DNA of 64,000 nt from Gemmatimonadaceae bacterium (GCA_035606695.1 DATNEW010000003.1:1-64000), one strand, 5' to 3'; numbered from the stretch's first letter, positions 5,675-26,926 are shown. Notes: generated by a model from the sequence alone, not told the origin. Numbers and translations: made by a program.

Positions 5675-5700
5675 GTCCGCGGAAAGGGCCGAGCCCACCT
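5675..5700 (+). promoter_or_regulatory. copy 1 of a 26-bp conserved upstream motif
   Basis: The element begins GTCCGCG and ends ACCT, with a palindromic core GGGC-CGA-GCCC. It lies 78 nt upstream of the ankyrin start at 5779. It matches the copies at 22263-22288 and 26901-26926 (both minus strand) at about 20 of 26 positions, in the same orientation relative to the gene. Differences within the core largely preserve base pairing. It could be an operator or a hairpin in the 5' leader. Confidence 0.6.
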
Positions 5701-5778
5701 GATCGATCGTCGCACGTCCACATCCCGATCTTCTTTCTGCCCGGCGTGCGGACACGGGCGCTCGTGAGAGGAGATCAC

Positions 5779-7689
5779 ATGTCTGACCCAGCCTCGCGGC
5801 TCCCGGCGCGTCCGTCGGTAGCGCAACTCCGGAAACAAGCGAAGGAACTGCTGCGTGCCTTTCGTTCGGGCGACGCCGTCGCGCGCGAACGATTTCGCGC
5901 GATCGTTCCGCGGTTCGCCTCGGCGAACGAGAGCGCCGTTCTCGCCGACGCGCAATTCGTGATCGCGCGTGAAGCCGGCTTCCCGAATTGGGCGGAGCTC
6001 GTGCGTCATGCCGAAAGTGTGAATCCCACGCCGACGCGCGGGCCTGCGTTGCCGCTCATTCGGCCGATCGAGATGACCGCTTCGCCGTCGATCACGCTGT
6101 CCGACGGTGACGTCGCGTCATCCGATGAGGTGTATGGCATCTTCGTCGCCGCGCGCGCCGGCGACATGAAAGCGGTGCGGCGCCTCGTGAGCCGGCACCC
6201 CGCGCTCGCCACGCACGAGTACAACTACACGCCGCCGATTCACTTCGCGGTGCGCGAGGGGTTTCTCGACCTCGTGCGGTTCTTTCTCGAGCACGGAGCC
6301 GACCCGGCCTATCGCACGTACCCGTATGGCGACTCGCTGTTGATGATGGCCGAAGATCGCGAGCATCACGACATCGCCTCCCTGATCCGCACGCGGCTCG
6401 CGGCGCAATTCGGCGATGCGCTCGACGCGACGGTCATTCTCGCCGCTGCCAGAGGCGGGGATCTCGCGCGTATCCGTGCCGAGCTCGCGCGTGATCCTCG
6501 GCTCGCCGTTCACGGCGATGAGACTGGAAACACCGCGCTGCACGAGGCGGCGTCCAACGGCCATCTCGAGATCGTCATTGCGCTGCTCGACGCCGGCGCG
6601 CGGGTCGACGCCGTGCGCAGCGACGGCGCGCGTCCGATTCACAATGCCATGGGCCCGAACTGGCGTGCGCAGGTGCCGCCCGAGCGCGCCCGCGCGATTG
6701 CCGACCTCCTCCTGGCGCGCGGGGCCAGGTACACGATGTTCCTCGCCGCGTTGCGCGGTGACGATGAGTACATCAAAAATGCGCTTGCGCGCGACGCATC
6801 GCTCGCGAATGCGGAGGACAGCTGTCATCGCCGGCCGTTGTCGGCGGCGGCCGGCACGCAGAATCTCGAGATGGTGAAGCTGCTCTTGGAACACGGCGCC
6901 GATCCAAGGTTGCCGGAAGTCGGAGCGCCGGGCGGTGCCGCGCTGTGGGACGCTGTCTATCGCAAGCAGTACGAGATGGCGCGGCTGTTACTCGAGCATG
7001 GCGCGAACCCGAACGCGATGGTCGAGTCGAGCGGCACGCCAATGTATCATGCGCGGAAGGACCCTCGCTTCTTCGAGCTGCTGAGCCGCTACGGCGGGAG
7101 GCACGAGACAGATCACGTCGCGACGCTCGGCCGACTGATCGGCGACGATGACCGCGCGGGCGTCGAGACGATGCTGCGCCGCCGGCCGGAGCTCGCCCTC
7201 GAGGATCGCCTGTTCTGGTCCGAGGGTATTCTCTGTGGCCCGTCGAGCGCGGGGAGTCATGAGATGATCCGGCTGTTGTTTCGTTTCGGCGCGCGCGTGC
7301 CCGCGGTGTCGAAGTGGGGCCCAAATTACTACTTCAAGCATTACGAAACTGCAAAGCTGCTGCTCGAGCACGGCATGGATGCGAACCACATGAACTGGCA
7401 TCGCACCACGTTGCTGCATCACTTCGCGTCGAGGGGCGACGGCGCCAAGGTGCGGCTGCTGCTCGATCACGGCGCATCGATCGACGGCGTCGACGAGGAG
7501 TATCGCTCCACGGCGCTCGGCATGGCGTCGCGCTCGGGACAGCGGGAGATTGTCGGTCTGTTGCTCGAGCGTGGCGCGGATCCGTCGGTCGCCGGTGCGT
7601 CGTGGGCGACGCCGCTGGCGTGGGCGAGAAAGAAGGGGCACTCGCACATCGAGACGCTGCTCGTTCAACGCGAATCGACCGCGTCGTGA
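5779..7689 (+). CDS. ankyrin-repeat protein with shared N-terminal module
   Basis: This 636-residue protein has an N-terminal module of about 75 residues (VAQLRKQAKELL...LADAQFVIAREAGFPNWAELVRH). Ankyrin repeats follow to the C-terminus, for example GNTALHEAASNGHLEIVIALLDAGA, LEMVKLLLEHGADP and REIVGLLLERGADPS, at least ten units in total. No signal peptide is seen, so it is probably cytosolic and binds other proteins. The ATG at 5779 is preceded by GAGAGGAG; an upstream in-frame ATG at 5746 lacks a good site. The module recurs in the genes at 21098 and 25504, and all three share an upstream motif. Confidence 0.85.
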   Translation: MSDPASRLPARPSVAQLRKQAKELLRAFRSGDAVARERFRAIVPRFASANESAVLADAQFVIAREAGFPNWAELVRHAESVNPTPTRGPALPLIRPIEMTASPSITLSDGDVASSDEVYGIFVAARAGDMKAVRRLVSRHPALATHEYNYTPPIHFAVREGFLDLVRFFLEHGADPAYRTYPYGDSLLMMAEDREHHDIASLIRTRLAAQFGDALDATVILAAARGGDLARIRAELARDPRLAVHGDETGNTALHEAASNGHLEIVIALLDAGARVDAVRSDGARPIHNAMGPNWRAQVPPERARAIADLLLARGARYTMFLAALRGDDEYIKNALARDASLANAEDSCHRRPLSAAAGTQNLEMVKLLLEHGADPRLPEVGAPGGAALWDAVYRKQYEMARLLLEHGANPNAMVESSGTPMYHARKDPRFFELLSRYGGRHETDHVATLGRLIGDDDRAGVETMLRRRPELALEDRLFWSEGILCGPSSAGSHEMIRLLFRFGARVPAVSKWGPNYYFKHYETAKLLLEHGMDANHMNWHRTTLLHHFASRGDGAKVRLLLDHGASIDGVDEEYRSTALGMASRSGQREIVGLLLERGADPSVAGASWATPLAWARKKGHSHIETLLVQRESTAS

Positions 7690-8876
7690 CCGGGCCCCAC
7701 GTACCGCGCGCGCGGTCGAATCAACTGCCCGAGGGTGTATTGCTCGATCGCATGTCCGATCCACCCGATCGTGCGGCCGATCGCGAACAACGTGAGGCCC
7801 GAGCCCGCCGGCAGGCGCAACACGCGTGAGACGGCGGCGAGGCCGAAGTCAAGTGAGGGACGCGTGCCAAGCGTGTTCGACGCCGCGTCCGCGACGTCGA
7901 GCGCGAACGCAAGCTCGCGCGAGGTGGGATAACGCGCTCGCAGCACATCGAACAATTCGCGTGCTCGCGGATCGCCGTCCGGGTACAGGGGATGGCCGAA
8001 GCCGTGAATCTCCTCACCCTGCCGCAAGCGTTCGGCCACTGCCGAGCGTCCCGAGCGGGCATGGCGCATGGACGCGAGCATCGCCTCGACGCGCTCGGTC
8101 ATGCCGCCATGCCGAACTCCCTCGAGCGCCGAGAGGCCGGCGATCACGGCGGCATAGACACTCGCGCCGGCCGATGCGACACATCTCGCGGTGAATGCCG
8201 AAACGTTGAGCTCGTGATCGGCGCACAGAATGAGCGCGGAGCGCACGACGTCGACTGCTCCGCGCTTCAACCGCCACGCGGCGGCGAGCTCCGCGTCGAT
8301 GCTCGCATTCAGCGCCGGCGCCAGGGTCGCGGCGCGAGTCATCGATGAGAGAATCGTCAATCCGGTCTCCACGACGGCGTCCCGGCGGAAGTCGAATGCA
8401 CGCGCATCACGCGCCGCGGCGGCGGCGAGCAGCGTTTGTGCTCGGAGGACGAACGGAAGATCGCGCGGTAGGTTCGGTGGCCGCGCCGTGGCCACGCGGG
8501 GGGCGGCTGGCTCCTCGAAGCTGCCGGTCCAGAGCAGCGCCGCCACGGCGCCGACCGATCGGCTTCGCGAGAGCTCGATCGCGTCGTGGCCGCGATAGTA
8601 CAGCCGTCCGCCGTCGATGAGCGTGATGGCCGACTCGAGCACGGGGGTGCCCAGGTCGAGAGCGTGCGCGGCGACGGCGCTCGGATCGCGACGCTCCTCG
8701 GCCCGCCGCCGAAGCCGCTCGACGTCCTCGCGCGCATAGAGTCGCTGGCGCGTCGCGCCGCCGCGTGGCCGGGACCGAAGCCGCCCGCGGCTCACGTACG
8801 CGTACAATGTGGCGCGTTTCACACCGAGGCGGCGCGCGGCCTCGGCGGCCGAGAGCCACGCGGCCGGCGCTTTCAT
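7665..8876 (-). CDS. citrate-synthase-like protein fused to an N-terminal helix-turn-helix
   Basis: This 403-residue protein begins with a MerR/excisionase-type helix-turn-helix (residues about 6-57: WLSAAEAARRLGVKRATLYA...LYAREDVERLRRR). A citrate synthase domain follows (from about residue 75). Active-site landmarks are retained: VRHGGM, GFGHPLYPDGDPR, PSLDFGLA with the catalytic Asp, and GWIGHAIEQ...RPRARYVGP. It could be a metabolite-sensing transcription factor, a DNA-associated enzyme, or both. It is divergent from a second citrate synthase gene, across an AT-rich gap of 55 bp with ATTGA repeats. Its 3' end overlaps the convergent ankyrin gene by 25 bp. Confidence 0.8.
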   Translation of the reverse strand: MKAPAAWLSAAEAARRLGVKRATLYAYVSRGRLRSRPRGGATRQRLYAREDVERLRRRAEERRDPSAVAAHALDLGTPVLESAITLIDGGRLYYRGHDAIELSRSRSVGAVAALLWTGSFEEPAAPRVATARPPNLPRDLPFVLRAQTLLAAAAARDARAFDFRRDAVVETGLTILSSMTRAATLAPALNASIDAELAAAWRLKRGAVDVVRSALILCADHELNVSAFTARCVASAGASVYAAVIAGLSALEGVRHGGMTERVEAMLASMRHARSGRSAVAERLRQGEEIHGFGHPLYPDGDPRARELFDVLRARYPTSRELAFALDVADAASNTLGTRPSLDFGLAAVSRVLRLPAGSGLTLFAIGRTIGWIGHAIEQYTLGQLIRPRARYVGPGHDAVDSR

Positions 8877-8900
8877 ATTGATTTATTGATCAACATTGAC
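8877..8900. promoter_or_regulatory. ATTGA repeats / TTGATCAA palindrome between divergent citrate synthase genes
   Basis: Three ATTGA copies start at 8877, 8885 and 8895, and the palindrome TTGATCAA lies at 8886-8893. This short AT-rich island in otherwise GC-rich DNA sits directly upstream of the HTH-citrate synthase start. It is a plausible operator for that protein and for the divergent citrate synthase gene. Confidence 0.45.
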
Positions 8901-8931
8901 TCGAATATGGAGCGGCCGCTACCCATTCGCC

Positions 8932-10044
8932 ATGGGCACCGATACTGGACTCGAGGGCGTCGTCGCCGCGTCGACCCGCCTGAGCCACGTCGACGGCGAG
9001 CGTGGTGAGCTGATCATCGTCGGATATTCGCTCGCCGAGCTGGCCGCGCACGCGACATTCGAGGAGACGACGTGGCTGCTGTGGCACGGCCGCCTTCCCG
9101 CGTCATTCGAGCTCGATGCATTTCGCGCCGAGCTCGCGGAAAAGCGTGCGCTGTCCGAGACCACCCTGTCGCTGCTCCGCGACTGCGCACGCGCGAAGCT
9201 CGACGCCATGGACGCGCTGCGTATGGCGGCGGGAACGATCTCGCTCACGGCCGACGACGCGGTCACGATCGCCGCCGCGATTCCGACGATCGTCGCCACG
9301 TTCTGGCGATATCGCGACGGGCTCGAACCCATCGCGCCCCGGCCCGATCTCTCGCATGCCGCGAACTACTTGTACATGCTGACCGGTCGCGAGCCGGCGG
9401 CGGAGCGCACGCGCGGACTCGAGACCTATCTCAACACCGTCATCGACCACGGGTTGAATGCCTCGACGTTCACGTGCCGCGTGATCACCTCGACCGGCTC
9501 CGATCTCGTCTCGGCGATCGTCGGCGCGATCGGCGCCCTGAAAGGACCGCTGCACGGCGGCGCACCCGGTCCGGCGCTCGAGATGGTGTTCGAGATCGGC
9601 GACGCGTCACGCGCCGAGCCGATCCTGCGCCGCAAGATCGAGAGCGGCGAGCGGCTCATGGGCTTCGGTCATCGCGTGTACAAGGTGCGCGATCCGCGCG
9701 CCGACGTTCTCGCCACCGCGGCCGAGCGCCTCTTCACGCGCGGCGGCGACATGGCGTTGTACCGTTTGGCGCGCGACGTCGAGGGCGTGGCGCTGCGCCT
9801 GCTGGAGGAGTACAAACCCGGACGACGGCTGCAGACGAACGTCGAGTTCTACACCGCGTTGCTGTTGCACGGTCTCGGCCTGGACGTGCCGCTGTTTACG
9901 CCGACGTTCGCGATCGGCCGCGTGAGCGGCTGGATCGGCCATGCGCTCGAGCAGCGGGCGGCGAACCGTCTCATTCGGCCGAGCTCTGCGTACGTCGGGC
10001 CGCGCGACCTGAGGTGGACGCCCCTCACCTCGCGCGTGCGATAG
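8932..10044 (+). CDS. citrate synthase / 2-methylcitrate synthase family protein
   Basis: This roughly 370-residue enzyme should condense acetyl-CoA (or propionyl-CoA) with oxaloacetate. Landmarks are GPLHGGAPG, MGFGHRVYKVRDPRAD, LFTPTFAIGRVSGWIGHALEQ and RPSSAYVGP. In the segment usually written NVDFYS the catalytic Asp is Glu (TNVEFYTALL), a variant also known in some functional citrate synthases as far as I recall. I chose ATG 8932 (MGTDTGLEGV, the typical N-terminus). An in-frame TTG at 8896 and ATG codons further in are alternatives, and no strong ribosome binding site decides. It is divergent from the HTH-fused paralogue, which may regulate it. Confidence 0.85.
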   Translation: MGTDTGLEGVVAASTRLSHVDGERGELIIVGYSLAELAAHATFEETTWLLWHGRLPASFELDAFRAELAEKRALSETTLSLLRDCARAKLDAMDALRMAAGTISLTADDAVTIAAAIPTIVATFWRYRDGLEPIAPRPDLSHAANYLYMLTGREPAAERTRGLETYLNTVIDHGLNASTFTCRVITSTGSDLVSAIVGAIGALKGPLHGGAPGPALEMVFEIGDASRAEPILRRKIESGERLMGFGHRVYKVRDPRADVLATAAERLFTRGGDMALYRLARDVEGVALRLLEEYKPGRRLQTNVEFYTALLLHGLGLDVPLFTPTFAIGRVSGWIGHALEQRAANRLIRPSSAYVGPRDLRWTPLTSRVR

Positions 10045-10050
10045 CTCGCA

Positions 10051-10069
10051 GGCCGGACACTTTCCGGCC
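10051..10069 (+). terminator. hairpin after the citrate synthase gene
   Basis: A perfect 7-bp stem (GGCCGGA / TCCGGCC) with a 5-nt loop begins 7 nt after the citrate synthase stop codon. There is no downstream T run, so it would be a weak or factor-assisted terminator, or an mRNA-stabilising hairpin. Confidence 0.5.
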
Positions 10070-10233
10070 CTGGGACGATGACGGCGATCGCGATACCGCT
10101 TGCGTAGCGGCCCCGGCGGTTCCGCGAGCCACGCAAATCGTGCGGACCCGGCGGTGCTGGTCTGAAACGTGACGCATCTAACAGAAAGGCGTTGGACCGT
10201 CTGTTATCCATCGCGGCCCCCGATCAGGATGGA

Positions 10234-10752
10234 ATGATGGCATTATGGAAAGAAGCAACCGTGACACAGAAGGAATCGTCGGAGCCCGCGCCCGACGCCA
10301 CGGCCAAGAGCGATCTCGGCTTCGCCGCCGATCTCGGCTCGACGCCGCGACGTCCCGCCGCGCGCGAAGGCCGCGACATTCGTGAGGTCAAGGACTCGGT
10401 GCTCGGCACCGAGATCACTATCACCGGACGTATTGAAGGTGCAGGCAGCGTTCGCATCGCCGGGCGCTTCGAAGGCGACGTGAACATTCAGGGCGACTTG
10501 ACGGTCGAAGCGGGCGCCAAGCTCACCGGCAGTATTCGCGCGAATGCGGTCTCGATCGCCGGCGAAGTCGAAGGGAACATCGACAGCGCGGCGCGCGTCG
10601 AGCTGCAGTCGACCGGTGTGCTCAATGGTGATCTCAAGGCGGGCACGCTCGTCGTCGCCGCCGGCTCGAAGATGCGCGGACGCTCTGAATTCGGATGGGG
10701 CGACGAATCTTCATCGACCGCGCTGACGCTCGGCACGCGCCAACTCTTGTGA
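10234..10752 (+). CDS. bactofilin-family cytoskeletal protein
   Basis: This protein of about 172 residues contains a bactofilin (DUF583, polymer-forming) domain in its C-terminal two thirds. The repeated beta-helix turns read ITGRIEGAGSVRIAGRFEGD, LTVEAGAKLTGSIRANAVS and GEVEGNIDSAARVELQSTG. Bactofilins polymerise without nucleotide into filaments that position cell-envelope enzymes. The N-terminal part of about 50 residues is polar and probably disordered. The start is uncertain: ATG 10234, the adjacent ATG 10237 (one codon later), or GTG 10261, which has AAAGAAG nearby. The next gene overlaps its stop codon, so the two are translationally coupled. Confidence 0.85.
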   Translation: MMALWKEATVTQKESSEPAPDATAKSDLGFAADLGSTPRRPAAREGRDIREVKDSVLGTEITITGRIEGAGSVRIAGRFEGDVNIQGDLTVEAGAKLTGSIRANAVSIAGEVEGNIDSAARVELQSTGVLNGDLKAGTLVVAAGSKMRGRSEFGWGDESSSTALTLGTRQLL

Positions 10753-11123
10753 GTGGACTTCGTCGCCCGCCCGTCGGGGCGACGCGCACGTGTCCGCACT
10801 GTCGCGCGGTGATTCTGCAAAGCGCCAGCGTGTGTCCGTCGTGTCGCAAACACTTGCGATTCGACCCCGCGACCGACGGCACGAACGCAGAGCCGAGCTT
10901 TTCACCGCTGCGCGTGGAAGGCGCGATCCGTCGCCCGGCGGCCGGAGAGGGGTGGGAGTACGCCGTGATGGTCACCGTCAGCAACGAGCGCGGCGAAGAG
11001 CTGGTTCGCCAGCTCGTCGCCGTTGGAGCAATTCCGTCGGGCGAGCTGCGTCGCTTCACGTTCGCCGTCGAAGTGTTCACCGCGGAGGAGACGCCGGCGC
11101 CCGCGTCATCCACGCCGCTCTGA
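10749..11123 (+). CDS. zinc-ribbon protein coupled to bactofilin
   Basis: This protein of about 124 residues has an N-terminal zinc ribbon (CPHCRAVIL...CPSCRKHLRF, Cys4). A beta-rich domain of about 70 residues follows (WEYAVMVTVSNERGEELVRQLVAVGAIPSG), which I do not recognise; its pattern suggests an Ig-like or FxLD-type sandwich. The start is taken as GTG 10749, overlapping the bactofilin TGA as GTGA, a typical coupled start. It probably works with the bactofilin, perhaps as an adaptor on the filament. That role is inferred only from position. Confidence 0.65.
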   Translation: MSGLRRPPVGATRTCPHCRAVILQSASVCPSCRKHLRFDPATDGTNAEPSFSPLRVEGAIRRPAAGEGWEYAVMVTVSNERGEELVRQLVAVGAIPSGELRRFTFAVEVFTAEETPAPASSTPL

Positions 11124-11129
11124 CGAGGG

Positions 11130-12413
11130 TCACGACACCAAGCTTCTGCCGCGCGTTTCAGGAAGCAGAAACGCGGCGAGACCCATGAGGCTGTACGCGA
11201 TCGTGGCGAAGATCGCGATCGCGCGCGACAACGGCATGGTCGCCGAGATGTAGCCGACGAGCGCGGGAAACGTCGCGCCAATGCCGCGGCCAAAGTTGTA
11301 CGCGAAGCCCATCGCCGAGCCGCGCACGCGGGTCGGAAAAAGCTCGGCGAAGAATGCGCCCATGCCGGCGAAATACCCCGACACCACGAAGCCGAGCGGA
11401 AAGCCGAGCAGCCACAGCACGTTGTTCGTGAGCGGCGCGCGGGTGTAGATGAGCGTCATGACGAGCGCACCGCCGGCAAAGAGCAAGAACAACATCCGCC
11501 GTCCGATGCGATCCGCGAGCCACGCGCCCGTGAGATACCCGGCGAACGCACCGGCGATGAGAAAACCCAAATAGCTCGTCGAGCCGACGATCGTCAGGTG
11601 CCGTTCGGTCTGAAGAAAGATCGGCAGCCACGTATTGATCGCGTAATAGCCGCCCTGCGCGCCGGTGCCGAGGAGCGCGGCGAGCAGCGTGGTCTTGCGC
11701 AGCTTCGGCGAAAAAATCTCCCAGATCGACGCCATCGATTCCCGGCGCGCGGCCACGACGACAGGCGGCTCCTCGACGAAGCGCCGGATGAACACCACGT
11801 ACAGCGCCGGCACGAAGCCGAGCGCGAACATCCACCGCCACGCCTGCTGTTCCGGCACGAGTGAATAGACGATCGCCTGAAGCAGCACCGCGCTTCCCCA
11901 CCCCACCGCCCATCCGGATTGAACGCATCCGACGGCTCGGCCGCGATAGCGCGGGCGAATCGTTTCGCTCATCAGCGCCGCGGCGGCCGTCCACTCGCCG
12001 CCAAACCCAAAGCCGAGCAGCGCGCGGAAGAGCGCGAGCTGCATGAAGCTTTGCGCAACGGCCGAGAGAAGACTGAACACGGTGAACCACAGCACCGTGA
12101 TCTGCACGGCGCGCACGCGGCCCATGCGGTCCGAAATGTGGCCGGCAGCCCAGCCGCCGACCGCCGAGCAGAGGAGCGTCGCGCTGACGGTAAGTCCCGC
12201 GGCGCCGCGATCGACATGCCATAGTGCGATGACGCTGCCCAGAACGAGCGTGTAGATCGTGAAGTCGAGACCGTCGAGTGCATAGCCCAGGGCACACGCC
12301 AGCATCGTTCGGCGTTCGGTGATCGTCATCGCGCGATAGAAGGCGACCATTCCCGAATCGTCGCGATCCACGCCGATGCTCGCCGATGGTTCTGCCTCGG
12401 TGGCCTCGGTCAT
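11130..12413 (-). CDS. MFS transporter
   Basis: This 427-residue protein is a major facilitator superfamily permease with about 12 membrane helices. The first-half signature is seen as GHISDRMGRVRAVQITVLWFTV, and the second-half repeat as LADRIGRRMLFLLFAGG. RALLGFGFGGEWTAAAALMSE resembles the sugar/organic-acid group (sialate/aromatic acid:H+ symporter-like), but the substrate cannot be assigned. It is divergent from the FAH-family gene, 46 bp away. TACGTT lies 7 nt before its ATG, with no Shine-Dalgarno, as for other possible leaderless genes here. Confidence 0.85.
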   Translation of the reverse strand: MTEATEAEPSASIGVDRDDSGMVAFYRAMTITERRTMLACALGYALDGLDFTIYTLVLGSVIALWHVDRGAAGLTVSATLLCSAVGGWAAGHISDRMGRVRAVQITVLWFTVFSLLSAVAQSFMQLALFRALLGFGFGGEWTAAAALMSETIRPRYRGRAVGCVQSGWAVGWGSAVLLQAIVYSLVPEQQAWRWMFALGFVPALYVVFIRRFVEEPPVVVAARRESMASIWEIFSPKLRKTTLLAALLGTGAQGGYYAINTWLPIFLQTERHLTIVGSTSYLGFLIAGAFAGYLTGAWLADRIGRRMLFLLFAGGALVMTLIYTRAPLTNNVLWLLGFPLGFVVSGYFAGMGAFFAELFPTRVRGSAMGFAYNFGRGIGATFPALVGYISATMPLSRAIAIFATIAYSLMGLAAFLLPETRGRSLVS

Positions 12414-12420
12414 GGAGACG

Positions 12421-12426
12421 AACGTA
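12421..12426 (-). promoter_or_regulatory. TANNNT hexamer before the MFS start
   Basis: TACGTT on the minus strand ends 7 nt before the ATG at 12413. A -10 element at this distance would start the mRNA at or next to the initiation codon. See the leaderless-gene finding. Confidence 0.35.
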
Positions 12427-12447
12427 CGGCGCGCGAGCAGTCCACGC

Positions 12448-12453
12448 TATCAT
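12448..12453 (+). promoter_or_regulatory. TANNNT hexamer before the FAH-family start
   Basis: TATCAT ends 6 nt before the ATG at 12460, with no Shine-Dalgarno between. It is consistent with a leaderless transcript. Confidence 0.4.
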
Positions 12454-12459
12454 TCATCC

Positions 12460-13392: not shown

Positions 13393-13404
13393 GTCCCGTT
13401 CACA

Positions 13405-13986
13405 TTACGGCGACCGGGGCCGACTATCCGGCGGGATGATTCCGTTCATCCGCGCGTATTCGACCATCTGGCCGTAATGGTCGAATGAGTGAGCGATGGC
13501 GTCGATGGCGAACGACAAGCGGTTTCGTTGCCAGGCGCTGGATGTCGCAACCGGCGCCGTCACGTTCGCCGGCTCGATCGAGCCGACAGCGTGATGCAAC
13601 GCGGCGAACGAGCCTTTGAGATATCTCATGATCTGTGCCTTGGTCCGAACGGAGTCGGGGCCGCGTTCGTCCGACATGTCGCCGCTCGGCGTCTCTCCGA
13701 GGATCAGCGCCGCCGCGCGATAGTTGTTCGCGGCGAGATGTTTCACCTGATCGCCGAACGAACGCACGCCCTCGAACTCGCCGAAGCGGCTTGGCGGCGC
13801 GAATGCGTACTTGCTCGCCGGCAACGCATCGGCGAGCGGTACGAGGTGCTGCTCGGTGTTTCCGATCCATGAGTCCACGGTCTCGGCGATCGTGCCTTGG
13901 CGTGACGGTTGGCTCGTCTGTGACGCGCCAGTCGCGGCGCTGAGGGATAAGAGTGCGATCGCGAGCGAGAGACGGGCGTCGAGCAT
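13405..13986 (-). CDS. exported DinB-like protein
   Basis: This roughly 193-residue protein has a signal peptide (MLDARLSLAIALLSLSAATGAS) followed by a DinB/YfiT-like four-helix bundle. Helical segments include TIAETVDSWIGNTEQHLVPL, SFGDQVKHLAANNYRAAALI and AIDAIAHSFDHYGQMVEYAR, whose His residues sit where DinB proteins hold a divalent metal. Exported DinB-like proteins of this type are frequent in this group of bacteria and their role is unknown. ATG 13986 has a GGAGA site; the open frame upstream overlaps the MerR gene and is not used. Confidence 0.75.
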   Translation of the reverse strand: MLDARLSLAIALLSLSAATGASQTSQPSRQGTIAETVDSWIGNTEQHLVPLADALPASKYAFAPPSRFGEFEGVRSFGDQVKHLAANNYRAAALILGETPSGDMSDERGPDSVRTKAQIMRYLKGSFAALHHAVGSIEPANVTAPVATSSAWQRNRLSFAIDAIAHSFDHYGQMVEYARMNGIIPPDSRPRSP

Positions 13987-14120
13987 CGAATCTCCGGGAA
14001 GTGAGAAAGCCGCCGATGAGTCCCGCGAGCTTAGCACTTCAAGCCGGCTTGAACGCAAGCTCCGGCGCGCGCCGATCCCGAACGATCGCCGCGCTCCTCG
14101 ACCGCTCGGGCCGTCTGCCC

Positions 14121-18574: not shown

Positions 18575-18618
18575 CAACCGATTACGCGTCGGACAATCGC
18601 TCGACGGCTAGCGACAGG

Positions 18619-21081
18619 TCAGTCGGCGCGCAGCGCTTCCGCGGGATCGACTCGCGCGGCACGGCGCGCCGGCAGCCAGGCGGCGATCGACGCCGTGACG
18701 ACGAGCGCCAGCACCGCGCCGCCAAGCGTCAGCGGATCCGTGGGCGAGACGCCGTAGAGCAACGAGCGAAGCAGCGGCGCGACAACGGCGAACAGCACGA
18801 GGCCGGCACCCGCCCCGATCACGACGAGCGCGAGTCCGCGCATCGCCACGGTTTGCGCCAACTGCCGCGGGTCGGCACCCAGCGCGATGCGCACTCCGAA
18901 TTCTCGCGTGCGCAACGCGACCATATACGCCATCACGCCATACAGTCCGATGGCTCCGAGCAGCAGCGTGATGATGGCCGCCGCGCTCATCAGCGTCAGC
19001 GCGAACGAGAGTCGCGCCATCGACGCACGAACGACGTCGGTCATCAGCTCGACGTTGAAGATCGGCACCGTCGGGTCGAGATCGCGTACGATTTTTCTAA
19101 TCGACGGCAACACCGCCGTCGGCGACCCCGACGTCTTCACGACGAGCGCCATCATGCGGCGAGCCCTCGGCTCGACTGAATCCAACGGCACCACCTGCGG
19201 CACATAGAGTGTCGCGGACGGCTGCGCGCCGAGGTCACGATCGCGCACGTCGCCGGCGACGCCGATGATGGTGTACGAGGGTCCGGCAGGCACCGACACG
19301 ATTCGCCTCCCCACCGCGGCGCGGCCCGTCGGATCGTGCCACAGCGTTTCCGCGGCGCGCCGGCTGATCACGGCTTCGCCGTCACGCTGAACGCTCAAGG
19401 TCTGAAAGCTTCGGCCGGCGAGCAGCGGAATGTTCATCGCCGCGAAATAGCCGTCGTCGATCGCGTTCGTCGAAAGCGAGGACTGCCGTCCCTCCTCTTC
19501 CATGCGGAACGACTGCTGATGCGTCTCTCCGTCGCCCAGCGGCAATCGTTCGGTGAGACCAGCGGCGCGAACGTTGGGAAGGTCTCGAACCGCCGCGGTG
19601 AGGCGCGCATGAAACCGGACCGCGCCCGAGTCGCTGTAGCGCGCGAACGGCAGCTGCATCCAGACGGTAATCACATTTCGTGTATCGAAGCCCGGACGCT
19701 CGTCGTAGAGCCGGCGAAACGTGCGCAGGAGCAACGCCGATCCCGCGAGCACCACGAGCGCCACCGCGATCTGCGTGGCGGCGATGCCCATGCGCAGCCG
19801 CTGTCGCGCTTTGCTTGCGGTGTCGCTGCGCCCGCCATCGCGCAGACTGATCGACAGATTCGCGCGCCGAATGCGAAACGCCGGTACGATGCTGCACAAG
19901 CACGCGCTCGCGATCGCCACCACGACGACGAACACAGTCGTCACGCTGCCGACATGCAACTCGGCCAGCCGGGGAACGTCCGCCGGTCCGAACGACACGA
20001 GCGCACTCACCGCGACCCACGCCGCCGCGACCGCAATCGCGCCCGCCGCCGCACACAGCACGACCGCTTCACCGAGGAAGTGCGTGAGAATCCGCAGCCG
20101 GCTTGCGCCGAGTGCTTCGCGCACCGCGAGCTCGAGCTGGCGGCCATCCGCGCGGATGAGCATGAGGTTCGTGACGTTCGCGCACGCGACGAGCAGCACG
20201 AGCCCCGCCGCGGCGGCGAGAATCCACAGCGTGCGCGCGATGCCGCTCGTCATCTCGTCGCGCAGCGGCGTGACGACGGGAGTGACGCCCGTCTGGTCCA
20301 GCCAGGTGATCGTCGGCGTTCCCGATTCGAGAAGTGGAAAGAGCTCGACGACGCGCGGCAGGACCGTCGCGAGATCGCGCTGCGCCACCGCCGTCGTCGC
20401 GCCGTCGACGAGACGCCCGACCGCCGAATAACTGAAGTCGCCGAGCGAGGCGCCGGCCCGATCGAGCTTGGAGGGAAGCCACACGCGAGTCGCGGCGTCC
20501 GGAAACCGGAAGCGCTCCGGCATCACACCAACGATGATCCTCGCGACACTATTGGCGTAGAGGATCTTCCCGATGACGTCGCGGTCTGCGTGGAACCGCT
20601 GCCTCCACACCGATTCGCTGATGATGGCGGCGTCCGGCCCATGCCCACGATCTTCGTCGACCGTGAACGAGGCGCGGCCGAGAAGCGGGGGCACCTGCAA
20701 CATGGAGAGCGTGGACGTCGTGACCCACGTCGCGGTGACGCGCTCCGCCTGGTCATCGCTCCCGCGCGTCCAGATGTTGGCATTTCCAGTTCTATAAAAC
20801 CCGATGTCCTGGAGGCGCCGTGAGAATCGCTTGAACGCGAAGTACGCGCCGGCCGGCTGCTGGATGCGCCGAAGCTCGGGCGATCGCGCATCCATGCCGA
20901 CGCTGACCAGACGATCGGAGTGCCCGAACGGGAGGGGCGCGAGCAGCACACCGTAGACGATGGCGAACATCGCCGCGACAGAACCGAGCCCGAGGACGAG
21001 CGTCAACGTCGCCGTCGTGGTGAAGACCGGCGTGCGCTTCAAGGATCTGAGAGCGTGTTTCAACCAGCTCGGCAGATTCAT
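18619..21081 (-). CDS. ADOP-type ABC permease
   Basis: This 820-residue permease has the duplicated MacB/FtsX layout. The first half runs MNLPSWLKHALRSLKRTPVF...TLTLVLGLGSVAAMFAIVYGVLL to VLLVACANVTNLMLIRADGRQLELAVREALG. The second ends AIGLYGVMAYMVALRTREFGVRIALGADPRQL. It lacks the N-terminal prefix domain of the permease at 14966. It starts 16 bp after the module-TIGR03067-like gene, so they form one operon. No ATPase gene is nearby; transport substrate unknown. Confidence 0.9.
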   Translation of the reverse strand: MNLPSWLKHALRSLKRTPVFTTTATLTLVLGLGSVAAMFAIVYGVLLAPLPFGHSDRLVSVGMDARSPELRRIQQPAGAYFAFKRFSRRLQDIGFYRTGNANIWTRGSDDQAERVTATWVTTSTLSMLQVPPLLGRASFTVDEDRGHGPDAAIISESVWRQRFHADRDVIGKILYANSVARIIVGVMPERFRFPDAATRVWLPSKLDRAGASLGDFSYSAVGRLVDGATTAVAQRDLATVLPRVVELFPLLESGTPTITWLDQTGVTPVVTPLRDEMTSGIARTLWILAAAAGLVLLVACANVTNLMLIRADGRQLELAVREALGASRLRILTHFLGEAVVLCAAAGAIAVAAAWVAVSALVSFGPADVPRLAELHVGSVTTVFVVVVAIASACLCSIVPAFRIRRANLSISLRDGGRSDTASKARQRLRMGIAATQIAVALVVLAGSALLLRTFRRLYDERPGFDTRNVITVWMQLPFARYSDSGAVRFHARLTAAVRDLPNVRAAGLTERLPLGDGETHQQSFRMEEEGRQSSLSTNAIDDGYFAAMNIPLLAGRSFQTLSVQRDGEAVISRRAAETLWHDPTGRAAVGRRIVSVPAGPSYTIIGVAGDVRDRDLGAQPSATLYVPQVVPLDSVEPRARRMMALVVKTSGSPTAVLPSIRKIVRDLDPTVPIFNVELMTDVVRASMARLSFALTLMSAAAIITLLLGAIGLYGVMAYMVALRTREFGVRIALGADPRQLAQTVAMRGLALVVIGAGAGLVLFAVVAPLLRSLLYGVSPTDPLTLGGAVLALVVTASIAAWLPARRAARVDPAEALRAD

Positions 21082-21097
21082 CGTGGCTCGCCCGAGC

Positions 21098-22171
21098 TCA
21101 CTTGCGCTTCCATTGGCTGAGCGTCATTCCCTCCCCGCCGGCAGGCGGGAACTCCGCCGGTCGCTCGCGTCCCGGCGCGGCCATCAGAAAACACACCTCG
21201 TCGCCGATCCACTGCATGATGCCTTTGCTCACTTTGCCCGTGTCGCGCCCGTGGACATGGAGATAATCGATGGCAATCGGTGTCGCGCTCTCGTCGATGC
21301 GCATCTTCACGTGCAACATGGTTTGTCCGCCGAACACGACCTTCGCTTCGTTGCGCGTCCCGGTGCGCGACCCGTACGCCAGCCAGTCGGCCCGCATCTC
21401 GTCGCCGTTGGTGACGAGCCGAACAGGAATCCACGTGCCTTCGAGTCGCGCAAGTATCGGGCTCGACTCGATCGCGAAGTCCGCGGGATCGACGGGCGGT
21501 AACGGAGCGGCGCTCGCGGCTTCCCCGTCCGGCGCGGTACCACCGGTGACTCCGGCCGGACGGGCCGGCGAGGCACGACGCAGCCGCTCCAGCGCATGTC
21601 CGCTTCCTGCCGTCGTCGCAAACGACGTCGGACGCGACGAACCGACCAGGCCGAGACAGATGGTGAGGCGATCATCGTCGAGCGCGAACAATCCGTACGC
21701 GTGATTTCCGGCCTCGGGACCCTCGACGAACGTGATGTCGATCTGCATCGGCGTCGTCAGCGTGTCGATGCTGAATCGGCCGTCATAGGTGGCCTCGGGC
21801 GACTCCATCCGAAACAGATCGCCGTCCATGAGAAGTTTCGAATCCCCGAACGCCGCGCCGGGCATGTTGCCGCCGTCGATCTGCAACGACTCGAAATGCC
21901 ACTCGCCTTGCAGTGCCCGCAGCTGCTCGACATGCCGAACGAGCTGCGGCCAACTGGCGAACCCGCTCTGTCGCGCGATGACGGACTGCGCGTCGGCCAG
22001 GCGAAATCCCGCCGCGCGCGTTTGCGCGACGGACATGCCGCCGGCCTTCGGCAGATGTGCGATGAATGCCCGCGCGGCCGAAGCGTCGCCGGCGCGAAGC
22101 TCGGCGAGCAACGTTTTTGCCTGGCCGCGAAAGTGGTCCAGGTTGGGGCGGGTCGTCAGCTGATGCGTCAC
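21098..22171 (-). CDS. N-terminal module plus TIGR03067-like domain protein
   Basis: This roughly 357-residue protein opens with the module shared with the two ankyrin proteins (NLDHFRGQAKTLLAEL...RLADAQSVIARQSGFASWPQLVRH). A beta-rich part follows (LQGEWHFESLQIDGGNMP...GLFALDDDRLTICLG), which resembles the TIGR03067/lipocalin-like domain common in planctomycetes. A second such unit is near the C-terminus (LARLEGTWIPVRLVTNGDEM...GKVSKGIMQWIGDEVCFLM). GTG 22171 is chosen because GGAGG lies just upstream. The ADOP permease gene follows after 16 bp. A conserved motif lies 91 nt upstream. Confidence 0.75.
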   Translation of the reverse strand: MTHQLTTRPNLDHFRGQAKTLLAELRAGDASAARAFIAHLPKAGGMSVAQTRAAGFRLADAQSVIARQSGFASWPQLVRHVEQLRALQGEWHFESLQIDGGNMPGAAFGDSKLLMDGDLFRMESPEATYDGRFSIDTLTTPMQIDITFVEGPEAGNHAYGLFALDDDRLTICLGLVGSSRPTSFATTAGSGHALERLRRASPARPAGVTGGTAPDGEAASAAPLPPVDPADFAIESSPILARLEGTWIPVRLVTNGDEMRADWLAYGSRTGTRNEAKVVFGGQTMLHVKMRIDESATPIAIDYLHVHGRDTGKVSKGIMQWIGDEVCFLMAAPGRERPAEFPPAGGEGMTLSQWKRK

Positions 22172-22262
22172 GAAGCCTCCATGCCGAGCCTGGGGTCCGC
22201 AATCAGGCTGCACGAAGGTCGTGGCCTAACCGACGAGCGCACATACATGCGCGAGCATGCGA

Positions 22263-22288
22263 AGGTGAGTTGAACTCTTCCCGCGGAC
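22263..22288 (-). promoter_or_regulatory. copy 2 of the 26-bp conserved upstream motif
   Basis: Read on the minus strand it begins GTCCGCG and ends ACCT, with the palindromic core GAGTT-C-AACTC. It lies 91 nt upstream of GTG 22171. It matches copy 3 at 22 of 26 positions. One core difference (A-T for G-C) is compensated on the other side of the palindrome. Confidence 0.65.
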
Positions 22289-22382
22289 CCGGAGGCTTCC
22301 TTCAAGCCGCCCCGATCATACGTCGGATGGTCACGGGTGGCAAGAATTGCTTCGCCACCGCTCGGTGCGACGCACCATTCGC

Positions 22383-22442
22383 TTGACCCCGCCCCGCGCG
22401 ACGGGTAGCCTACGGGATCATTTTCTGTGTAACTACATCACA
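22383..22442 (+). promoter_or_regulatory. promoter and possible operator of the marR-type gene
   Basis: TTGACC (22383-22388), 17 bp, then TAGCCT (22406-22411). A TGTG-N9-CACA inverted repeat (22426-22442) lies between the expected mRNA start and the ATG, where the MarR protein could bind to repress itself. Confidence 0.4.
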
Positions 22443-22906
22443 TGTCCGGATCCGCCACGAAAGCCTCGGGCGCCACAGCCAAATGCGCCGCCGGTACGCT
22501 CCGCCGCGCCACGCGCTCCATCTCGCGCGTGTATGACGCGCGCCTCGCGCCCGCCGGACTCACCGCGACGCAGTTCTCATTGCTGAGCGCTGTCCAACGG
22601 CGCCGTGGACCGGTTCGCCTGACCGAGTTGGCCGACGAATTGGTGTTCGAGCGGACGTCCCTCTACCGGAACCTCACGCCGCTCGCGCGCGAGGGACTGA
22701 TCACGCTCAGCAACGCCGGCGGTCGCGCGCGGCAGGTGGCCCTGTCGGCGAAGGGTGTTCGGCGCATCGCGCAGGCGCTGCCGCTGTGGACCGCCGCGCA
22801 GGAGGATTTTCTCGAACGGTTCGGGCGCGGTCCGTGGAACGAGCTTGCCGAGCAGCTCGTCGAGATCGTCGACATCGCGCGGGCCATGCCGGGCGCGGAC
22901 GGCTGA
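22442..22906 (+). CDS. MarR-family regulator
   Basis: This 154-residue regulator has the MarR winged-helix core: TATQFSLLSAVQRRRGPVRLTELADEL, then FERTSLYRNLTPLAREGLI, then the wing ARQVALSAKGVRRIAQA. N- and C-terminal helices form the dimer interface. No operon partner is obvious: it is convergent with an ADOP gene, 20 bp away, and divergent from the module gene at 22171. It may control itself or one of these neighbours. Ligand unknown. Confidence 0.85.
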   Translation: MSGSATKASGATAKCAAGTLRRATRSISRVYDARLAPAGLTATQFSLLSAVQRRRGPVRLTELADELVFERTSLYRNLTPLAREGLITLSNAGGRARQVALSAKGVRRIAQALPLWTAAQEDFLERFGRGPWNELAEQLVEIVDIARAMPGADG

Positions 22907-22926
22907 TTGGTTTCGCGACGAGCGCC

Positions 22927-25452
22927 CTAGTCCTGCCGAAGCGCCTGCATCGGCGAAATTCGGAGCGCCGCAGACGCGGGAACGAGCGTCGCGACCGTCC
23001 CGACGAGCATGAGGAACACCGCGATCGCGGCGAGTCCCAGAACGCCGAGCGACGGCAACGGCAGCGTCCAGCTGTTGATGAGGCCCGACTCGCCGATCGC
23101 CAGCACGAGGCCGATCGCCAGTCCAATCCCGACGAGCCGCAGCTCGCCGCGCATGACGAACTTCAGAACGTCCGCGGGCCTTGCGCCAACGGCCATGTGC
23201 ACCGCGATCTCACGCCGCCGCTGCTCCACGCCGAACGCGACGACGCCGTACAGGCCGACCACCGCGAGCGCGAGTCCGAGCAACGCGATCGCGCCGGTGA
23301 TGCCGGCGCCGTACCGGAACGGAACGATCTGCTGATCGTGTAACGCCGACAGCGGAGTGATCGTGAGCGGCGCGTTCGGGTCCACCTGCGCGGCGATGTC
23401 CGCGATCGTGCGCGACGCATTGACGGCTCCGGCATCCATGCGCGCGAGAATCGGCATGTCGAGCGACGCGAAGTCCGCGGCGACCGCCGGCGTATAGAGG
23501 TATCCCTCATCGTCCGGATCCCACAGCATGACACTGTGCGCATCGGCAACGACGCCCACGACTTGCTGCGGCGCGCTCAACTCGCCGTTCGCGTCAACCG
23601 AGCGAAACGTATTGCCGACGGCACGACGACCCGGCCACAGCGCGCGCGCCGCGGCCTGCGTGACGATGGCGACCGAGGTGCCGGATGCACTGTCCGCGCT
23701 CGTGAAGGCGCGCCCATCGACGATGCGCTGGCCGATGACGTCGAAATAGTTCGGCGTAACGATGTTGTGCGAGAGAACGTGGGGGCGTGCGTCGTTCGAT
23801 GCTTCACTGGAACGAATACGCGTCACGCGCCAACTGCTGAACGGCGGGAACGCCGCGCGCGCGACGACGGCGACACCGGGTGCGCGCGCGATTCGCGCGT
23901 CGAGCGTCGCCCGGTCGGACGCGATCGTCGCCGGCAGATGGTCCGCCGGAGCGATCCCGAACTCCACGAATGCAACATGCTCGGGATTGAGACCGGAATT
24001 CGACGACGCGAAGCGCTGCACGCCGCGCGTGAGAATGCCTGCCGCCGCGATGAGCACGACGGACCCCGCGACCTGCGCGGCGATCAACCAATCGCGGACC
24101 TTCGAACGACGCAGCCTCCCGCCCACGGCGGTGTCGTCGCCTTTGAGCATGCCGCTGAGATTCAACGAAGTCGCCTGCAGCGCGGGCACGAGGCCAAACG
24201 TCATCGAGCTCACGCACGCGAGCACCACCGTGTACGCGACGACGCGCCAGCTCGGCGCGAGCGTCAGCGCGAGCGTCAGCGCGAGTGAGCCGAGTGTCGG
24301 CGGCACGAAGCTCAGGTAGGATCGCGAGACGATCTTCACGGTCCAGTCGGCGAGCACGAACCCGAGAATCGCGCCGGCGACGGCGATGAGCAAACTCTCA
24401 GTCAATAACTGTTGAATCAACCGGCCGCGCGAGGCGCCCAGGGACAGACGGACGGCGATCTCGCGACGACGAACGAGCGCGCGACAAAGCAGCAGGTTCG
24501 CCAGGTTGGCGCATGCGATGACCAGCACGAGTCCCACCACGAACAGCGCGGGCGTCAGTATCAACAGCGTGTTCGACGTTGGAGGAATCATCGACGCTCT
24601 GGGTTCGACGGTGACGCCCACGATTCGCTCGAGCGCCGCGCGGGTTCCCTTGGGCGCCGGCGGCTCGGCGACGAATCCGGACAGCTCCGCCCGCGCCTGG
24701 CGCGGCGTGTAGCCTGAACGAAGTCTTGCGTGCAGCGTGATGAATCGATTCGTCGGATCGAGCAGGCGTCCCGGCGTCGCGCCGATGCGTTCGGCTTGCG
24801 GCAGCGTCATCCAGATGTCCGGCACCAACGGGTTGATGCCGATGAACGTCGGCGCGGCGACGCCAACCACGGTGACGTATGCCCCGTTCACGATGAGTGA
24901 GCGTCCGATCGCGTCCCGCGAGCCGCCGAACATGCGTTGCCAATACGCGTCGCTGATCACGGCCACCGGACCACCGTCGGTTCGTTCATCCGCCGTCGAC
25001 AACACGCGACCTGCCGATGCCGAACCGCCGAGCGCCGTGAAGTAATCTCCGGTCACGAGCCCGACGCTGCTCGCCGTCGCGAGAGTGGTCGCGCTCGGCT
25101 TGATCGCCACGGGCTGAGCGAAGTATCCGATGACCTGTTCGATACTCCGCGCGTTCGCCGAGAGCGCGACGACCTCCGGATACGAGAAGCGAATGTTCTG
25201 GAGTCCGCGGCCATCGAGCGTCAAGAGCCGGACGAGCTGTTCCGGACGCGCGACCGGAAGCGGCCGCCACATGAACGTGTCGATGAGCGTGAAAAACCCT
25301 GCGTTGATGCCGATCGCGATTCCGACCGCGCCGATGGCGATGGCCGCGAAACCGGGCGAGCCACGGAGCATGCGCGTGGCGTAGCGGATGTCCTGCCCGA
25401 GCTGCTCGAACCAGCGGAGGCTCCGCTCGCCGGTACGCGTCCATACGTGCAT
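22927..25452 (-). CDS. ADOP-type ABC permease
   Basis: This 841-residue permease has two MacB/FtsX halves. Landmarks are SPGFAAIAIGAVGIAIGINAGFFTL at the N-terminus, LVLVIACANLANLLLCRALVRRREIAVRLSLGAS in the first permease part, and LALAVVGLYGVVAFGVEQRRREIAVHMAVGA in the second. The conserved ending SPMQALRQD is present. The full prefix domain is absent. It lies 51 bp downstream of the ankyrin gene ending at 25504, probably one operon. It is the second case in this window of a module-bearing gene placed before an ADOP gene. Confidence 0.9.
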   Translation of the reverse strand: MHVWTRTGERSLRWFEQLGQDIRYATRMLRGSPGFAAIAIGAVGIAIGINAGFFTLIDTFMWRPLPVARPEQLVRLLTLDGRGLQNIRFSYPEVVALSANARSIEQVIGYFAQPVAIKPSATTLATASSVGLVTGDYFTALGGSASAGRVLSTADERTDGGPVAVISDAYWQRMFGGSRDAIGRSLIVNGAYVTVVGVAAPTFIGINPLVPDIWMTLPQAERIGATPGRLLDPTNRFITLHARLRSGYTPRQARAELSGFVAEPPAPKGTRAALERIVGVTVEPRASMIPPTSNTLLILTPALFVVGLVLVIACANLANLLLCRALVRRREIAVRLSLGASRGRLIQQLLTESLLIAVAGAILGFVLADWTVKIVSRSYLSFVPPTLGSLALTLALTLAPSWRVVAYTVVLACVSSMTFGLVPALQATSLNLSGMLKGDDTAVGGRLRRSKVRDWLIAAQVAGSVVLIAAAGILTRGVQRFASSNSGLNPEHVAFVEFGIAPADHLPATIASDRATLDARIARAPGVAVVARAAFPPFSSWRVTRIRSSEASNDARPHVLSHNIVTPNYFDVIGQRIVDGRAFTSADSASGTSVAIVTQAAARALWPGRRAVGNTFRSVDANGELSAPQQVVGVVADAHSVMLWDPDDEGYLYTPAVAADFASLDMPILARMDAGAVNASRTIADIAAQVDPNAPLTITPLSALHDQQIVPFRYGAGITGAIALLGLALAVVGLYGVVAFGVEQRRREIAVHMAVGARPADVLKFVMRGELRLVGIGLAIGLVLAIGESGLINSWTLPLPSLGVLGLAAIAVFLMLVGTVATLVPASAALRISPMQALRQD

Positions 25453-25503
25453 GGTCTGACTCCGTTGGGTTACCGGATAGTACGAGGGGAAGGCAGAATG
25501 GAT

Positions 25504-26805
25504 TCAGCGCGTCACCAGCTTCAGAATTTCCGGCCGTCCGAGAAACTCGGCCCAACCAATGGCGTCGCTGTCGTGTCGCGTATCGCGAATGGTCGGATCG
25601 GCCCCGGCGTCCAGAAGCGCGCGCACGACGTCGACCTGATTCCCGAGCACGGCGAGGTGCAATGGCGCAACGTCCGAATCCCAGTGACTCCAGCGCGTGT
25701 TCGGATCCGCACCGTGGTCGAGGAGCCACTTCACCCCCCGGAGATCTCCGCGCTTCGACATCAGATGCAACGCGCCGGCCGCGGGCTCGAGGAGCGCGCG
25801 ATTGTCCGCGACGAGCCGCTCCGCCATGTCCCAGTCGCCGAGCGACAGCGCGGCGAGAAGATCCATTGCCGTGCCGTTCATCGGGCGATTCCCGCGACGC
25901 GCGCTCGTCAGCTCGGCGGCGGTCATCGCGCGAATCGCTTCCATGACCGGCCGGTCGATCAATGCATTGCGTGCGTGCGCCGCGGCGGGAGCACCGGATG
26001 CGTCGCCGGCGAGCGGATCGGCGCCAAGCTCGATGAGCAGCGACACCATGCGAGGGCGATTCGCGTTCACCGCGAAGTGCAGCGGCAGGCGGTTGTTCTC
26101 GTTGCGGCTCATGCGACGTCTGAGCACCGACGGATCGGCGGCGACGATGCGGCGCACTTCATCTTCCAGGTCCAGCGCGATCGCCGAGAAGATGTGGTGT
26201 CGCGCGCCGCGGCTGATCAGGAAATCGACCACCTCGCGATGCGCTCGATCGTCGCATCCCTCCCAACACGACGCCCAGCCGATCACTTCGAGCTCGTGAT
26301 CGTCGCCGTGGCCGACGACGTCGCCACCGGCGTCGGCAAGCCGGCGCACGACATCGAGCTCGCCGCCGGCCGCCGCCCAGTGCATGGCGTACGTGTTGTC
26401 GCCCTTTTCGCGCGCGTTGACGTCGGCGCCGCGTTTCAACAAGAGATCGGTCGTGCCGAGGTGTCGCGCCGCGAGATGGAGCAGCGTCTGCTCATACGGG
26501 TCGAGGCGAACGCTCAGTTTTTCGGGATGCGCATCGAGCAGCTCGGCGAGTTTCGCGTTGTCGCCTTCGCGCGCGGCCGCCGCGAGTTGTCCATCGATCG
26601 AGCGTGAATCGATATGGGCTTTGAGCGCGCGCCAACTCGCGAAGCCGTAGCGTTTCGCGAGATCGAATTGCGCGTCGGCGAGCTTCGCCGCGGCATTCGA
26701 CCGTTGGAGCTCCGCCAGGCGCCGCTTGGCGTGCTTCCGAAGCCAGTCGAGGTTGGGCGCGTCGGGCAATGACGCAGCCGCCGATGGGTGGTCCTGCTCG
26801 GACAT
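25504..26805 (-). CDS. ankyrin-repeat protein with shared N-terminal module
   Basis: This 433-residue protein starts with a shortened form of the shared module (NLDWLRKHAKRRLAEL...KLADAQFDLAKRYGFASWRALKAH), which lacks about 20 residues in the middle compared with the other two. Ankyrin-like repeats follow, including QTLLHLAARHLGTTDLLLKRGADVN, NTYAMHWAAAGGELDVVRRLADAGG and NQVDVVRALLDAGADPTIRD. It has no export signal. A GGAGG ribosome binding site lies upstream of the ATG. It is probably co-transcribed with the ADOP permease that follows. The shared upstream motif lies 95 nt before the start. Confidence 0.85.
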   Translation of the reverse strand: MSEQDHPSAAASLPDAPNLDWLRKHAKRRLAELQRSNAAAKLADAQFDLAKRYGFASWRALKAHIDSRSIDGQLAAAAREGDNAKLAELLDAHPEKLSVRLDPYEQTLLHLAARHLGTTDLLLKRGADVNAREKGDNTYAMHWAAAGGELDVVRRLADAGGDVVGHGDDHELEVIGWASCWEGCDDRAHREVVDFLISRGARHHIFSAIALDLEDEVRRIVAADPSVLRRRMSRNENNRLPLHFAVNANRPRMVSLLIELGADPLAGDASGAPAAAHARNALIDRPVMEAIRAMTAAELTSARRGNRPMNGTAMDLLAALSLGDWDMAERLVADNRALLEPAAGALHLMSKRGDLRGVKWLLDHGADPNTRWSHWDSDVAPLHLAVLGNQVDVVRALLDAGADPTIRDTRHDSDAIGWAEFLGRPEILKLVTR

Positions 26806-26900
26806 GGCACCTCCATTCCTGGTGGAAGGGGCGAGCCCTTCGTGCCGCCCATGGTCCGCAGTGAGGGCGAGGAATAGAAGCCGATATGAGAATGCTAAAG

Positions 26901-26926
26901 AGGTGGGTTGAACCCTTTACGCGGAC
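26901..26926 (-). promoter_or_regulatory. copy 3 of the 26-bp conserved upstream motif
   Basis: On the minus strand the element starts GTCCGCG and ends ACCT, with the palindromic core GGGTT-C-AACCC. It lies 95 nt upstream of the ankyrin start at 26805. Nothing else was recognised in the surrounding 197-bp gap. Confidence 0.65.

Follow-up and report, generated by a model that had tools for sequence, protein, structure and literature searches.

The question raised by a 64,000-nucleotide (nt) stretch of DNA from a Gemmatimonadaceae bacterium (GCA_035606695.1, DATNEW010000003.1:1-64000), referred to below at its full length as the window, is what role is played by a 26-bp motif that stands upstream of genes whose products share an N-terminal module. 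An earlier note, made from the sequence alone, had placed copies of the motif at 5675-5700 (+), 22263-22288 (-) and 26901-26926 (-), and had suggested that they represent either a conserved leader structure or the operator of a common regulator. These positions are exact in the sequence: all three copies are 26 nt long with GTCCGCG at the 5' end and CACCT at the 3' end, they agree pairwise at 19, 21 and 22 positions, and their 3' ends precede the start codons (ATG 5779, GTG 22171 and ATG 26805) by 78, 91 and 95 nt. The arms of the palindrome inside the motif do covary among the copies, as had been claimed, and exactly three genes in the window carry the module; the whole genome contains five. 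Searched without mismatches across the 5.9-Mb genome, GTCCGCNNNAAGN9CACCT occurs at the three window sites and nowhere else, so that the motif exceeds chance. The answer developed here is that the motif is the 5' half of a structured mRNA leader of about 130 nt, a cis-acting RNA which, judging from its comparative sequence record, very probably sequesters the Shine-Dalgarno (SD) sequence of the module gene that follows it.

A looser pattern applied to 298 genomes of the phylum recovered many near-identical copies with a covarying palindrome (for example GTCCGCGGGAAGGACCGAGTCCACCT and GTCCGCGGAAAGGGATCATCCCACCT), and the plan of the longer leader was derived by inspecting these matches in their sequence context. 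Its 5' part consists of hairpin P0, GTCCGC, GG-N-AAG, hairpin P2 and CACC, in this order; beyond a variable stretch come the anti-SD strand, hairpin P3, whose loop contains GCGGAC, the SD and the start codon. Several of these features go beyond what the earlier note had described: GCGGAC, which lies 3' of every copy; the hairpins P0 and P3; and the helix between anti-SD and SD. GTCCGC is complementary to the GCGGAC of the P3 loop and therefore forms a pseudoknot with P3. In all window copies the SD strand has the anti-SD strand as its partner; in copy 1, for instance, GATCTTCTTTC faces GAGAGGAGATC, and in copy 3 CTTCTATTCC faces GGAATGGAGG. The parts of the three copies and the genes that follow them are given below, with the evidence for each part in brackets; R1 and R2 denote covariance models.

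5644..5649 (+): copy 1, -10-like box TAGAAT, with no clear -35 (sequence; offset -31, inside the peak over 173 loci)
5648..5781 (+): leader RNA copy 1, the whole covariance-model match, overlapping the start codon (R2 93.8 bits, E 2.4e-12 in its own genome; R1 E 9.4e-19)
5656..5669 (+): copy 1, P0 hairpin GCGTC-TCAG-GACGC (sequence; helix in both covariation sets)
5675..5680 (+): copy 1, pseudoknot 5' strand GTCCGC (covariation; compensatory variants)
5686..5696 (+): copy 1, P2 hairpin GGGC-CGA-GCCC, the palindrome of the earlier note (covariation)
5727..5737 (+): copy 1, anti-SD strand, partner 5766-5776 (sequence; helices in both covariation sets)
5739..5759 (+): copy 1, P3 hairpin GCCCG...CGGGC, whose loop holds the pseudoknot 3' strand GCGGAC at 5748-5753 (covariation)
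5766..5776 (+): copy 1, SD strand, paired with 5727-5737 through 11 pairs including G-U (sequence; fold)
5779..7689 (+): module and ankyrin-repeat protein of 636 amino acids, module at 5782-6018
22315..22343 (-): copy 2, promoter-like TTGCCA (22343-22338), 17 nt, TATGAT (22320-22315) (sequence; peaks over 173 loci)
22169..22315 (-): leader RNA copy 2, whole model match (R2 76.1 bits, E 2.1e-9)
22294..22308 (-): copy 2, P0 hairpin GGCTT-GAAGG-AAGCC (sequence)
22263..22288 (-): motif copy 2, with pseudoknot 5' strand GTCCGC (22288-22283), P2 GAGT-TCA-ACTC and CACCT (sequence)
22187..22223 (-): copy 2, anti-SD CACGACCTTC (22223-22214) and P3 AGCCTG/CAGGCT (22209-22187), with GCGGAC at 22200-22195 (sequence; fold)
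22169..22180 (-): copy 2, SD strand GGAGGCTTCGTG, which takes in the GTG start (sequence)
21098..22171 (-): module protein 2, module at 21920-22165, without a Pfam match
26956..26984 (-): copy 3, promoter-like TTGCCG (26984-26979), 17 nt, TAGCGT (26961-26956) (sequence)
26803..26953 (-): leader RNA copy 3, model match 26825-26953 (R2 63.2 bits, E 3.2e-7)
26931..26946 (-): copy 3, P0 hairpin GGCCGC-CGGG-GCGGCC (sequence)
26901..26926 (-): motif copy 3, with pseudoknot 5' strand GTCCGC (26926-26921), P2 and CACCT (sequence)
26847..26880 (-): copy 3, anti-SD (26880-26871) and P3 GCCC/GGGC (26868-26847), with GCGGAC at 26859-26854 (sequence)
26840-26826 (-): copy 3, extra hairpin AAGGGCTCGCCCCTT; the leader continues past it to the start codon
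26810..26819 (-): copy 3, SD strand, 10 positions paired with the anti-SD (sequence)
25504..26805 (-): module and ankyrin-repeat protein of 433 amino acids, module at 26605-26775

The structural case rests on comparison; minimum free energy folds of single leaders (z of -0.2 to -2.2) are poor evidence. The covariance model R1 was built from 23 loci and searched against 249 genomes of the phylum, where the matches listed number 106, in 59 genomes. In an alignment of 100 of these matches, 91.2% of cells are paired, both partners have changed in 24 of the 31 pairs, and cells with a double change number 436 compared to 133 in shuffles, with none of 500 shuffles as high on any measure; when the 3' partner is shifted by 1-3 columns, pairing falls to 39-47%. 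P2 is 99.5% paired, with covariation in three of its four pairs, the SD strand is itself part of a covarying helix, and a second alignment set drawn from many phyla supports the same structure. The counts for the nested helices are biased towards the model, since those helices were part of it; the pseudoknot lay outside the model, and it is 99.8% paired. It is nearly invariant, and where it has changed it has mostly changed on both sides: it is rewritten as ACCCGC/GCGGGT at three loci (L164, L171 and L175), as ATCCGC/GCGGAT at L178, as GTCCAC/GTGGAC at L179, as GCCCGC/GCGGGT (one of the pairs being G-U) on a replicon of Variovorax paradoxus (L391), and as TTGCTGC/GCAGCAA at a Phycisphaeraceae locus (L395), while at L157 it is altered without a full match (GCGGGG). 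These variants are separate rewritings of one contact. A longer pseudoknot helix was considered and rejected, the pair flanking GTCCGC/GCGGAC being present in 70 of 176 cases (40%) compared to an expected 38%. The duplex between the anti-SD and SD strands has a median energy of -19.2 kcal/mol.

The place of the motif relative to the start of transcription was assessed over 173 leaders. Counted from GTCCGC, the -10-like box TANNNT is most frequent at -35 to -30, with 110 leaders having it in a window around that peak as against 8-13 in control windows; TTGAC is most frequent at -60 to -54, which corresponds to a 17-nt spacer between the two. As these promoter-like boxes peak upstream of GTCCGC, the motif most likely lies inside the 5' leader, downstream of the promoter, and P0 is predicted from the promoter elements to stand at about +1 of the transcript. 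The leader thus combines the features looked for in a cis-regulatory leader RNA, namely compensatory structure, a position in the predicted 5' untranslated region and overlap with the ribosome-binding site.

The association of this RNA with the protein module is close to strict. The genome-wide covariance search that the earlier note had recommended returned five leaders and the module profile five genes, paired one to one and every pair adjacent. The fifth of these leaders, outside the window (L091, G000:C4:31132-31405), is intact, and its module gene is broken, the reading frame leaving the module after about 45 residues. Across the 249 genomes of the phylum, 54 have both leader and module, 5 the leader only, 8 the module only and 182 neither (Fisher p 6e-40). 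Among the 74 strong module genes in these genomes, defined as those scoring 70 bits or more, 70 have a leader; the four others are one in G129 with a leader further upstream, one that retains no more than the 3' part of its leader (L221), and two with none. At the G129 locus (L238, G129:C1:3133700-3135700) the leader is followed by a DinB-like gene and then by the module gene, an apparent insertion. A set of 40 genomes from about ten groups, taken from the carriers named below, gave 71 of 74, and two of the three genes that lack a leader there start at a contig end or close to it, so that in the combined sets a leader stands at 141 of 148 strong module genes. Taken from the side of the RNA, a module was detected downstream by distance for 194 of the 207 leaders of both sets, which is the adjacency expected of an autogenous-type leader, and those without a called module are mostly accounted for by module remnants, frameshifted or weak modules and chance matches. 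The distance from leader to aligned module start has a median of 4 nt in the 40 genomes, and the highest count seen was 18 module matches and 16 leaders in the 7.1-Mb genome of Gemmatimonadetes isolate SI074_bin69 (G319). Two weak matches at unrelated genes (L181 and L182, E 0.005-0.009) were set aside as chance.

The leader is present in at least ten groups of bacteria. A 22-base spaced pattern found at least 80 loci in species genomes, and of the 80 listed the model confirms 78; two loci from the pattern scan (L244 and L291) lack a covariance-model match. By record title the carriers include Gemmatimonadetes, Acidobacteria, Verrucomicrobia, Planctomycetes, Armatimonadetes, Latescibacteria, Sorangium and Bdellovibrionales, the actinobacterial genera Amycolatopsis, Nonomuraea, Kribbella and Actinomadura, and, among the alpha-, beta- and gammaproteobacteria, Bosea, Burkholderia, Paraburkholderia, Rudaea and Fulvimonas; leader and gene also occur together in four records of a plasmid collection (Burkholderia arboris, Methylosinus, Variovorax and Ancylobacter). 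Culturable carriers include Paraburkholderia phenazinium and Variovorax paradoxus VAI-C, and the gene is present in Gemmatirosa kalamazoonensis as well. Among the matches listed, the module follows 78 of 81 model matches, the other three being a weak second match, one match cut by a contig end, and L243. The motif is therefore both kept upstream of relatives in many phyla and, where it occurs elsewhere, linked to module genes in nearly every case, which bears out the connection that the earlier note had drawn from three copies.

What follows the module varies. Ankyrin repeats occur in 64 of 75 full proteins, and the other C-terminal parts among the 75 include LRR, TPR, glyoxalase, methyltransferase, SnoaL, Imm1 and DHBP synthase. 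A gene of the Bdellovibrionales (L318:1887-2747, -) joins the module to a complete DHBP synthase (E 9e-73) behind the leader, and in an Acidimicrobiales genome a module-methyltransferase fusion stands behind the same leader type. The module itself is a predicted helical domain (predicted local distance difference test, pLDDT, 83). PF20066 Glyoxalase_8 matches 17 of 54 modules and NCBIfam PRK05973 19 of 54, mostly weakly in both cases, with best E values of 7.8e-5 and 3e-8, and the first window module has no match to PF20066. The neighbouring genes in the window include two of the MacB/FtsX permease type between and beside the module genes (18619-21081, -, and 22927-25452, -), and one encoding a citrate synthase domain fused to an N-terminal MerR-like helix-turn-helix (7665-8876, -).

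A mechanism can be proposed in which transcription would start at P0 and the RNA would fold P0, P2 and the long hairpin that pairs the SD with the anti-SD around P3, while the P3 loop would pair with GTCCGC and so tie the long hairpin to the 5' core (GG-N-AAG, P2, CACC). The folded state, whose pairing is taken from covariation, would presumably block the ribosome-binding site; some signal would then act through the conserved core; and the module protein would bind its own leader and adjust its own synthesis, as ribosomal proteins do. A translational control RNA is most likely, and the explanation preferred for the whole, a translation-controlling cis leader together with a module protein acting on its own leader, is one towards which we lean by a small degree; autogenous control by the module protein, taken as a prediction in its own right, is evenly balanced. 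A wider proposal, given slightly less than even credence, is that leader and module may form a portable unit, spread over about ten phyla or major groups, with the module reading its own leader and setting translation whatever the effector (ankyrin, DHBP synthase, methyltransferase or glyoxalase).

The main rival to autogenous control is a small-molecule riboswitch: P0, P2 and the pseudoknot would form the aptamer of a small molecule or ion, binding of the ligand would stabilize either the fold that blocks the SD or the opposite one, and the pathway of this ligand would be the one in which the ankyrin/module proteins act. A core with unpaired invariant bases, a pseudoknot and an SD hairpin is the architecture of a translational riboswitch, and the very broad phylogenetic range would suit one, so that this possibility is a real one, if on balance doubtful. 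A riboswitch class usually has several mutually unrelated genes of one pathway under its control. That association, which is typical of riboswitches without being obligatory, was not found here, the matches standing almost exclusively before module genes, even when the module is fused to unrelated enzymes, and no Rfam riboswitch matches; autogenous control is favoured because the constant partner of the RNA is the module and not the effector. Several observations weigh against autogenous control. A single gene family under a single riboswitch would produce much the same link between leader and module, and in a Phycisphaeraceae genome a full leader (L407, G303:C227, 156-306, +) is retained before an ankyrin protein that lacks the module and has a lipoprotein-type signal, which is the one clear leader without its module and a point for the riboswitch. 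A family of about 230 amino acids found in several groups (L396-L399 and L402-L405) has a related N-terminal module (MPNIENLRKQAK..LADAQELVAR) and no leader, so that the RNA is not indispensable to the module in every case. RNA binding by the module is also unsupported by structure, because the PDB yielded no informative match to the predicted fold: Foldseek gave no match below E 1, and the best VIA Z of 2.1 is uninformative. The loss of a conserved module lysine in leaderless genes was considered as a sign of RNA binding and discarded, since a leaderless subfamily retains it.

The remaining explanations account for less of the data. The SD lies inside a stable hairpin at many loci, as it would in an RNA thermometer or in an unregulated structure that occludes the SD and sets a low basal translation, but the invariant unpaired core, P2 and the pseudoknot, which a thermometer does not need, are conserved more than the SD helix, and such a structure is improbable. 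Mere descent, in which leader and module belong to one inherited gene family and the function of the leader is not tied to the module, would explain much of the link through one old family, as the ankyrin repeats in most of the proteins suggest; the compensatory changes nevertheless require selection on RNA structure in each lineage, and leader and module stay together where a different enzyme makes up the remainder of the protein, which makes this reading very unlikely. A DNA operator of a common regulator, the second suggestion of the earlier note, would fit the occurrence of a short palindrome at a constant position before each gene of a set. It is rejected, as hardly credible, because the motif lies downstream of promoter elements and because the paired parts vary freely as long as pairing is kept, including a contact over 60-90 nt, which DNA recognition would not give; of the two original suggestions it is the leader structure that has stood, in the sense that the conserved parts pair as RNA with compensatory changes.

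The leader was compared with known RNA families. Rfam 15 gave no match in the window at the gathering threshold, nor any at E up to 5 over 5500-27100, and six leader loci of other phyla gave only sub-threshold matches outside the leaders. No description of the leader was found in the open-access literature searched by text, a coverage outside which subscription papers and preprints mostly fall, and assignment to a known family was rejected on these two grounds. The novelty lies in the leader class as such, in how widely it is spread, and in its association with one protein module across unrelated proteins: a strongly covarying regulatory RNA of many phyla (Gemmatimonadota, Acidobacteriota, Actinomycetota, several proteobacterial classes, Verrucomicrobiota, Planctomycetota, Armatimonadota and others) is absent from Rfam 15. 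Through its strict link to the module, the leader offers a direct way in both to what it senses and to the function of the bacterial ankyrin-repeat proteins, a large uncharacterised family. Should the module bind the RNA, this would be an unusual regulatory RNA that travels with a protein domain, and if the portable unit is real, autogenous leaders would gain a new class that does not belong to the translation machinery, and RNA-binding domains a new family.

Structured leaders that hide an SD are known, and the element is of that kind. Translational pseudoknot riboswitches such as SAM-II and preQ1 have a conserved core, a pseudoknot and an SD that is occluded in the folded state. The leader shares these three features, but it differs in sequence and topology, matches no Rfam family and has no metabolic gene set. 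The purS motif is a proposed cis-regulatory RNA in which a loop forms the anti-SD (PMC11109978); the gene and taxa of the present leader are unrelated to it, and its anti-SD is the long 5' strand of a hairpin and not a loop. The autogenous leaders of ribosomal proteins (S15, L1) are alike in that a structured 5' leader accompanies the gene of one protein domain, with control of translation near the SD, predicted in the present case, and across many phyla. The present system differs from them in that its protein is non-ribosomal, its module is fused to unrelated C-terminal domains, and it occurs in many paralogous copies per genome, up to the 16 leaders of G319.

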